Shown piece by piece: positions 15,813-35,859 of a DNA stretch of 64,000 bases. Position 1 is the stretch's first letter, and every line of letters begins with the position of its first letter. The position numbers were made by a program, and so were the translations under genes. Under the pieces are notes generated by a model that saw nothing but the letters and a program-made list of their open reading frames with translations, had not been told where the DNA came from and did not search any database. This stretch comes from Rhizobium terrae (lineage in GTDB: Bacteria; Pseudomonadota; Alphaproteobacteria; Rhizobiales; Rhizobiaceae), in assembly GCF_003425685.1 (NCBI RefSeq), contig NZ_QJKM01000009.1, positions 248,001-312,000 of the forward strand, read 5' to 3'.

Positions 15813-16021
15813 GGCCACCGCCTTCCCATTCGCTGCGAGGCGAGCCCGCTCGAATCCGCAGCCGTGTATGTCTGTGACCCTCGCACTTGAACCGCGGGTC
15901 GGGACGGAAGCAGCGGGAAATTGTATGCTTCATCGTTCCCCCGCGTGGATGTTTTGCCTGGCTGTTCCAATTCCGCCAACGGCTTAGCATATTCCTCGTC
16001 CCCGTTTCTCGGACCCGTGCC

Positions 16022-16027
16022 TATAAT
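16022..16027 (+). promoter_or_regulatory. Perfect -10 box upstream of the structured RNA segment
   Basis: TATAAT on the plus strand, 12 nt before the expected start at about 16034. No good -35 hexamer is visible at 16-18 nt upstream (the region reads TCCCCG). It would drive transcription into the hairpin-rich segment that follows. Confidence 0.45.
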
Positions 16028-16033
16028 CATCCC

Positions 16034-16510
16034 GCTTCCGTCGCCGGAGTGTTTCGCGAGACGTTCGCGGGCAGGCGGGGGCCGGCGCCCTGGTTAGACC
16101 TGTAACGTGCAGGAAAGGCCAGGGAGGTGAAAGCCACGGGAGAGGGGTCGCAAGATACTTTCCCTATCAAGCCTCCCCCTGGCCGCCGGGCCGGGTTCGG
16201 TTGAGCCGTGCAAGTGGTCTGAGAAGACTACGCAGCGAGGCGAGGTGATCACCTGTAGGGACCGGAAGTCCCGACAAGACGCCGAAGGCCACGCGAATGC
16301 GGAGCCACCCATATAAACTAAATGAGGTTCCGCATTCGTGTGGGCTCTCCGATGGAGCCGTGCCGGGCAGATAGCCGGCGCGGGCAAGTGTGCTGAAACC
16401 AAAAAAATCTCGGCCTGTGGACACTTGCAAAAAAGCAAGTCGGCAGAGTCGGTTATGACTCCGTTCTGATCTCCAACAGGAAGAAGTTTCAGGCCCAGTT
16501 TCAGCAAAAT
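16034..16510 (+). ncRNA. Candidate large structured non-coding RNA, class unknown
   Basis: No convincing protein is encoded between 15813 and 16716; instead the plus strand folds into many helices. They are: GGCCAGGG (16117-16124) with CCCTGGCC (16177-16184); GGGAGAG (16138) with CTTTCCC (16158); GTGGTCT-GAGA-AGACTAC (16214-16231, GNRA loop); GGGAC-CGGAA-GTCCC (16258-16272); an 18-bp helix 16289-16306/16326-16343; GCCGTGCCGG (16357) with CCGGCGCGGGC (16375); GCAAGTGT (16384) with ACACTTGC (16421); and GAGTC/GACTC (16446-16461). Every non-Watson-Crick pair in these helices is G-U on the plus strand (A-C on the minus strand). RNase P, tmRNA and 6S motifs are absent. It may be a free RNA or a long leader of ybjN. 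Ends are approximate. Confidence 0.6.
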
Positions 16511-16716
16511 TGAAGACGAGGGGATGGCAGCGGGACTCCGTCTAGGTACACTGATTTTAAAGGATGATTCGAAACGGCTTGGTAAGCTCCAGACAGGGTG
16601 ACTGCGTTATTCTGGTGGCGTCGGGCGATCGTCCAAAGTGTTGTTCCCGGTCATTGTTCGCGTGTTTTGGCGTTTTTCGCAGGAATCCGCATTCATTCCG
16701 GTCAAGAAGGTGCCGC

Positions 16717-35508: not shown

Positions 35509-35662
35509 AAAAAAATGGGCCGCTGGATTTCTCCAGGGCCCTTTTAAGTGTGAAGGTCAAAACCTCCAGAGGGGAACAGCCGGCACAGACAACGGGAAAC
35601 GTGGTCAAACGGTGCCGGCCGACACCAATATGGGAGCGGCCCCCGCCCTCGACAAGGGTGCG
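35509..35662 (-). ncRNA. abcR: AbcR-type (alpha-r15) small RNA, promoter-distal copy
   Basis: Minus-strand RNA of about 150 nt. It contains CTCCCA (35636-35631), the anti-Shine-Dalgarno-like loop CTGTTCCCCTCTGGAGG (35579-35563) and a terminator with stem GGGCC...GGCCC around CTGGA-GAAA-TCCAG (35541-35517) plus a seven-T run. These match the two target-pairing motifs and terminator of the Hfq-dependent AbcR sRNAs, which repress many ABC-transporter mRNAs. The 5' end is inferred from CAATAT (35674-35669) and is approximate. A second copy lies upstream. Confidence 0.82.
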
Positions 35663-35739: not shown

Positions 35740-35859
35740 AAAAAAAGAGGGCCACCGGATTTCTCCAGGGCCCTATAAGTGTGAAGGTCAATAAAACCTC
35801 CAGAGGGGAACAGCTGCTGCGGTGGAACTGGGAGGAAAAAGCCACCATGTGCATCAGCT
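35740..35859 (-). ncRNA. abcR: AbcR-type (alpha-r15) small RNA, promoter-proximal copy
   Basis: Minus-strand RNA of about 118 nt. It shares with the distal copy CTCCCA (35834-35829), CTGTTCCCCTCTGGAGG (35813-35797), then GACCTTCACACTTATAGGGCC and a terminator (AGGGCC/GGCCCT, 35774-35748) with a seven-T run (35746-35740). A -10-like CATATC (35871-35866) lies upstream, and TTCGCT precedes the -10 by 14-15 nt in both copies. Tandem abcR1/abcR2 beside lsrB/vtlR is the arrangement known in Sinorhizobium, Agrobacterium and Brucella relatives. I do not assign numbers 1 and 2. Confidence 0.82.

Follow-up and report, generated by a model that had tools for sequence, protein, structure and literature searches.

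A multi-copy structured RNA of the Rhizobiaceae, probably of a new class, and the small Cys4 protein often encoded beside it

Introduction

What lies between the ubiK-like gene and ybjN in Rhizobium terrae? The window analysed here is a stretch of 64,000 nucleotides from the assembly GCF_003425685.1 (contig NZ_QJKM01000009.1, positions 248,001 to 312,000, forward strand). An earlier note, made from the letters alone, had placed at this locus a large plus-strand structured RNA of unknown class. To our knowledge, few large structured bacterial RNAs have a dedicated protein, and some still have no known function. The question is thus where this RNA begins and ends, whether it occurs elsewhere and in what company.

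Results

Limits and fold of the RNA

The structured RNA covers approximately positions 16033 to 16350 of the plus strand, about 320 nt. Its predicted 5′ end is placed from the -10 element, and its predicted 3′ end where the sequence shared by the copies stops after the 3′ hairpin. The locus has the following parts, in window positions.

16000 to 16005, plus strand: -35-like element CCCCGT, 16 bases upstream of the -10 element
16022 to 16027, plus strand: -10 element TATAAT
16033 to 16350, plus strand: structured RNA, supported by repeat limits, alignment, covariation and G-U bias
16034 to 16082, plus strand: 5′ hairpin with a conserved CCGGAGTG internal loop and an inner CGCGA hairpin (helices 1 and 2)
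16083 to 16284, plus strand: multibranch body of variable helices, with closing helix 16083-16087/16280-16284 (helices 3 to 13)
16287 to 16344, plus strand: long 3′ hairpin with an A/T-rich loop (helix 14, 99.0% of cells paired)
16345 to 16350, plus strand: CTCTCC tail, its CTCC(G) being the complement of (C)GGAG in the loop of the 5′ hairpin (possible pseudoknot)
16403 to 16560, plus strand: conserved block 5′ of ybjN, separate from the RNA and kept in relatives without it

Folding of positions 16031 to 16520 gave z scores of -7.2 on the plus strand and -3.6 on the minus strand, with none of 100 shuffles equally stable on either. The 18-bp stem proposed earlier (16289-16306/16326-16343) is present as drawn, and TATAAT does stand at 16022-16027, just 5′ of the helix starting at 16034. 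The GNRA-capped stem at 16214-16231 also exists here, but it is not a general trait, the length and sequence of this helix differing among copies.

Copies in the genome and in relatives

Searched with 16020-16560, the genome shows 11 places, the window and ten others. The ten other copies cover query positions 1-335 only, at 72-96% identity, and thus share with the window only about 16020-16354, which speaks against the single 490-nt RNA (16022-16510) of the earlier note. Furthermore, the piece from about 16403 is kept beside ybjN in genomes lacking the RNA, so that this interval holds two things. In 18 relatives this RNA is missing between ubiK and the ybjN-side block (16403 onward), and both are still present, with a spacing of 83-460 bases, or of 852 where a gene is inserted; it follows that the RNA is limited to about 16033-16350 and that the 3′ part is separate. 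The switch proposed there, pairing GCAAGTGT with ACACTTGC (16384-16441), falls outside the RNA, and a 3′ switch is unsupported. The ubiK-ybjN location is common to some relatives (the RNA then the ybjN block, in the same order, in seven genomes), but it is just one of 11 places in this genome. All 11 copies are intergenic, as seen by reading translations, and the genes adjoining them presumably include ftsK, flagellin, dapF, peptide-transporter ATPases and trpS. At least four (L039, L042, L043 and L044) lie between convergent genes; since several of the genome's own copies face convergent genes, the idea that these are leaders of a downstream gene was rejected.

Among 150 relatives, 53 were matched by 16020-16560. 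Counting only the matches listed, 41 genomes (own included) match in the RNA part, all of the same genus; the remaining 12 of the 53 relatives have a ybjN-side match only, or none among the matches listed. Five genus relatives searched singly gave 6, 5, 5, 5 (one a 64-base fragment) and 2 matches. A pattern scan returned at least 114 loci; among the matches listed, 90 have the RNA profile, 82 of them over at least 250 positions, and the other 24 listed loci comprise 23 records from other bacteria and one viral contig. The latter carries the 18-base pattern and lacks the RNA profile. In a wider search, a model of the RNA matched 3 of 385 genomes of the class, own included, and the two others (E 0.006-0.008) were not convincing on reading.

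Several observations made along the way deserve mention in their own right. At L222 (genome G049) the ubiK-ybjN gap has a gene of its own inserted, the start of which resembles, on reading only, a nucleotidyltransferase-type protein. In three of the 18 relatives mentioned above (L225, L226 and L227) the same gap holds a different structured element, which by reading resembles the RNA in its promoter and ends in a long hairpin on its 3′ side, and which has no match in Rfam. The 16403-16560 block, kept across the genus independently of the RNA, has a CCTGTGGACA...AAAAAAGC stretch whose flanking arms co-vary between species by reading; its TGTGGA core recalls what we take to be a DnaA box. Five genus relatives (L293-L297) have a short-bodied RNA with a smaller middle, retaining 5′ hairpin, 3′ hairpin and CTCTCC tail; the gene that follows it is the same in several species. 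Finally, the window contains two adjacent copies of the alphaproteobacterial sRNA ar15 on the minus strand, at 35511-35620 and 35743-35859 (74.6 and 110 bits, gathering score 40).

Covariation, strand and promoter

Full-length copies were extracted, excluding partial ones, to a total of 98, of which 48 with less than 88% mutual identity were kept and aligned. The consensus comprises 91 pairs, 32 of them compensatory on both sides, and the multibranch body (helices 3 to 13) holds most of these double changes. Paired cells amount to 97.7%, against 91.9% in shuffled and 37-48% with slid partners, and the covariation score is 0.239 against 0.129 and 0.046-0.074, respectively; in these comparisons taking the structure from the same alignment gives it an advantage over the slid versions, and kinship an advantage over the shuffles. 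None of 500 shuffles attains any of the five measures, and a chance origin of the paired structure is very unlikely despite both biases. A lack of conservation at this locus is excluded.

The non-Watson-Crick cells of these 48 copies and 91 pairs divide into 595 G-U, 27 A-C and 74 other mismatches. The G-U bias noted earlier in five pairs thus extends far past them, and since G-U cells far exceed A-C cells it points to the plus-strand RNA as the form under selection. In the 96 copies where promoters were counted (2 of the 98 being left out), a -10 element that departs from TATAAT in no more than one of its six positions stands at a fixed place in 85, TACAAT being the commonest form (64/96), and 69 combine it with CCCC[GA][CT] at -35 spacing. 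A CCCC-type motif is found upstream in 74 of 96 copies, against 16 of 96 after shuffling. Such conserved promoter-like motifs suggest that the copies are transcribed.

A partner protein

Reading 3′ of distant copies, and then scanning loci, brought to light a small open reading frame downstream of the RNA, with the invariant pattern C-x-L-x-x-C-R-R-A-x-x-C ... P-P-C (hence Cys4) and a product of about 95-140 amino acids in the genus set. Its profile matched 35 of 150 relatives, of which 30 belong to the genus, mostly with a single gene each, and 5 do not. At all 28 genus loci examined (L311-L338, excluding weak matches in G044 and G053), the RNA profile is situated immediately upstream of the Cys4 gene and on the same strand, and no genus genome with a protein match lacks the RNA (30 of 30). 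The two Neorhizobium plasmids that hold either one are a further case, the RNA lying directly 5′ of the Cys4 gene in both records. The converse does not hold: 11 of 41 RNA-bearing genus genomes, some of them drafts and one of them (G015) with 5 RNA copies, have no protein match at E 0.001. The consequence is that the RNA can persist without the protein. In two genus genomes, G031 and G005, the Cys4 gene is broken or split.

Across the family, a second Cys4 profile matched 35 of 297 genomes, spread over 21 of 109 genera. RNAs built on the same plan stand upstream at about 20 of the 24 loci of other genera (L347-L370), as judged by patterns and reading, in a set where L369 was not followed and L357 and L358 are cut by contig ends; none was found upstream at L347. 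At L339 and L340 the genus RNA profile found none, and L340 carries the subtype B described below. Among 289 genomes of the class, the protein profile matched two, own included, the other without RNA upstream by reading.

Comparison of 11 Cys4 genes over all pairs gave 2026, 1914 and 3079 differences at codon positions 1, 2 and 3, with 2923 codon changes altering the residue and 1366 keeping it; to judge from this moderate third-position excess, the gene is real but fast-evolving. The Cys4 product is probably zinc-binding. Similarity to known families is sub-threshold in Pfam (best E about 0.005), with E 0.24 in NCBIfam for two proteins and E 0.15 at best in PHROGs. The PDB sequence search up to E 5 gave no match, and a low-confidence model of the protein (pLDDT 64.7) matched no fold in the PDB (best E 5.8). 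A role as a defence system was rejected, PADLOC giving a single match at E 0.072, as was a phage origin, RNA and protein being without match in 50,697 phage records.

A second subtype and a possible pseudoknot

In other genera of the Rhizobiaceae the protein-linked RNA takes a diverged form that we call subtype B. Its own alignment (16 protein-linked RNAs) has 77 pairs, 34 with double changes, and, with the proposed pseudoknot included, a covariation score of 0.351, where shuffled versions reach 0.183 and slid ones no more than 0.113. A single subtype-B RNA used as query had 1-17 matches, some of them pieces of one copy, in each of ten genomes belonging to eight genera, and in all ten of these genomes a match lies, by coordinates, beside the Cys4 gene.

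Complementarity between the 3′ tail and the loop of the 5′ hairpin was seen in the subtypes read, and is suggestive of a pseudoknot, no more. None of its five pairs is changed on both sides within subtype B. In a weak test on 14 hand-picked pairs, the mean loop/tail score was 15.0 for real combinations, 12.1 across subtypes and 10.4 with shuffled loops, 6.1% of which reach the real mean; at L276 the complementarity is absent by reading.

Homogenisation and modules

Within a genome, the copies are homogenised. Of 90 copies drawn from genomes represented more than once in the set, 47 have their nearest neighbour among copies of the same genome, where 2.7 would be expected. The window copy is closest to a copy on another contig (94.7%), its ubiK-ybjN counterparts elsewhere reaching 76-84%. 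In G393, nine copies, the protein-linked one included, are near-identical in the body and differ in their flanks, and in G015 two copies are identical over 553 nt, extending beyond the RNA on both sides. This likeness is, as far as sequences tell, that of concerted evolution or of recent duplication. The identical unit of the two G015 copies (L243 and L246) starts inside a REP-like palindrome, CCCCCCTTGAGGGGGAGATG, in the upstream flank, and this palindrome might mediate recombination between them.

In genome G219, a single contig, the protein-linked RNA is accompanied by eight more RNAs that, by reading, have its promoter and 3′ hairpin but belong to two other body types. RNA-only copies also often have a distinctive 3′ side. 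The motif TYTTTGA stands just 3′ of the RNA in 33 of 73 RNA-only against 0 of 25 protein-linked copies of the genus set, and in 16 of 16 RNA-only copies counted in G393 and G219 (leaving out L390-L399, ten loci without tail match) against 0 of 1 linked. It resembles what we take to be a boxA antitermination site. At L381-L389, at L402-L409 and in the genome's own copies, TYTTTGA precedes a small hairpin, an arrangement confined to RNA-only copies.

Discussion

What was foreseen as a large plus-strand structured RNA of unknown class stands, backed by covariation, strand asymmetry and absence from Rfam; its copy number, partner protein and spread over the family lie beyond what had then been observed. 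The sequences establish a genuine multi-copy structured RNA of the plus strand, linked to a small protein: they show its fold, strand, conserved promoter-like motifs, copy number, protein linkage and homogenisation, while transcription, RNA ends, zinc, protein binding and action in trans are inferred. We take it for a new multi-copy class, outside the catalogues searched, and probably for the RNA of a ribonucleoprotein. Every copy would be its own transcription unit, a promoter followed by an RNA of about 320 nt (5′ hairpin, multibranch body, long 3′ hairpin), and one 'master' copy would often precede the gene of the small Cys4 protein. The protein would bind the RNA, the two would form a trans-acting ribonucleoprotein, and the RNA-only copies would provide dosage or variants; duplication would spread the copies and gene conversion keep them alike. 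We give this reading, taken whole, an even chance. In its favour we counted covariation with its controls, G-U bias, promoter motifs at fixed spacing, protein linkage, same-genome nearest neighbours, the near-identical bodies of nine G393 copies and the copies that face convergent genes. We counted against it the genomes with RNA and no protein, the broken protein genes and the low-confidence protein model, together with patchy copy number and decayed copies, which fit a selfish element equally.

Such a selfish mobile element is the next most probable reading, possible though less so. RNA with protein would be autonomous, RNA-only copies non-autonomous, and the fold would serve the element's own copying or maintenance, in the manner of REP/RAYT with RNA replacing the DNA hairpin. 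Copies are indeed dispersed, variable in places and number, and amplified in a lineage-specific way; several RNA-only copies go with a single protein gene, truncated copies exist (L291, L292, L272 and L273), and the 553-nt identity in G015 fits as well. However, the Cys4 protein matches no transposase or other family, and in G015 RNA copies persist and duplicate without a protein match. Moreover, insertion ends or target-site duplications were not found, the identical unit of G015 extending past the RNA on both sides, and some places are common to several species, as for the ubiK-ybjN copies of seven genomes. To be sure, this reading and that of a ribonucleoprotein are compatible in part. A cis-acting leader of the Cys4 gene, for autoregulation or sensing, with RNA-only copies as relics or decoys, is improbable. 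It would account for the RNA being placed, at each of the genus loci examined, between the promoter and the Cys4 gene and on the strand of both, and for the lack of a U-run terminator after the 3′ hairpin in the loci read; yet RNA-only copies retain promoter motifs and fold, have been homogenised together with the linked copy, and often carry a distinct 3′ flank (TYTTTGA, 33/73 against 0/25 linked). It is hardly credible, in the end, that a single RNA of about 490 nt (16022 to 16510) has a 3′ switch belonging to ybjN: RNA and ybjN block do stand together, in this order, in seven genomes, but each piece also exists without the other, the RNA ten more times in the same genome and the block in relatives lacking the RNA there.

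Returning to the ribonucleoprotein, a bolder extension can be proposed tentatively, and we hold it rather doubtful: a superfamily of modular rhizobial RNAs with a constant frame and exchangeable bodies, where one Cys4 protein would recognise the frame and the bodies would be specificity domains. The frame would consist of a TCCCC[GA]C promoter, a 5′ hairpin with a GGAG or GGGA loop, a long 3′ hairpin and a tail that may pair back to the 5′ loop. This view is based on G219, where protein-linked type B coexists with two other body types in eight RNAs, by reading. If true, it would describe a diversifying ribonucleoprotein with no known counterpart.

Whatever the outcome, an RNA with strong covariation is present in many genera of Rhizobiaceae, with as many as 11 copies in the genome studied here, linked to a protein undescribed in the family libraries searched, and this linkage makes function directly testable. 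If selfish, it would be an unusual RNA-coded repeat with copies kept alike.

Comparison with known systems

The main text of PMC11109978, in the part available, contains no rhizobial term, and in the open-access literature no paper was found that describes the RNA or the Cys4 protein in its title or the start of its abstract. Against Rfam 15, the whole of this segment has no match at gathering score; lowering the threshold, for it and for relatives, yields nothing but sub-threshold miRNA and lncRNA matches at chance level, and identity with an RNA known to Rfam is excluded. For retrons and group II introns, there was no Rfam intron or Pfam reverse transcriptase match, the immediate neighbours of the genome's own copies having been read.

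OLE RNA is about 600 nt long, found mostly in Bacillota and included in Rfam. It is, in the portions available of two papers, a large structured bacterial RNA thought to act with dedicated proteins (PMC10898510, PMC12054373). The likeness would lie in being a large structured bacterial RNA with a dedicated protein, the latter being proposed here; by contrast, the rhizobial RNA is about 320 nt long and multi-copy, has no Rfam match and gave no covariance match to OLE RNA. RAYTs are Y1 transposases, with one protein gene beside one copy of a dispersed REP repeat. Here, too, one protein gene adjoins a dispersed repeat, but the repeated unit is an RNA that has promoter motifs and the G-U bias, and the Cys4 protein has no Pfam match at cut-off to a Y1 (HUH) transposase. 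In HEARO, the omega RNA of IscB, a structured RNA stands upstream of a protein gene and RNA-only copies exist. Both traits recur here, whereas the protein is small, and neither a HEARO RNA match nor a nuclease-type protein was found in Rfam and Pfam. Type III toxin-antitoxin systems have a promoter, an RNA of short tandem repeats and a small protein gene; the order of promoter, RNA and small protein gene is the same here, but in the loci read the RNA appears, from alignments, as one large unit per locus rather than as short tandem repeats, and no toxin family was matched in Pfam, in NCBIfam (two proteins) or in PADLOC.

Nearer to the organism at hand, the Sinorhizobium families SmelA003, SmelB126 and SmelA075 are described, in the available part of the source, as multi-copy with fragmented microsynteny, with intragenomic transfer being proposed, and SmelA075 and SmelA099 as built of repeated single hairpins (PMC3927594). 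On that same partial account, SmelA075 and SmelA099 differ from the rhizobial RNA in being made of such hairpins. The Smel families are like it in having several copies per genome, a likeness that for SmelA003 and SmelB126 is drawn from the available published description, not from sequence.
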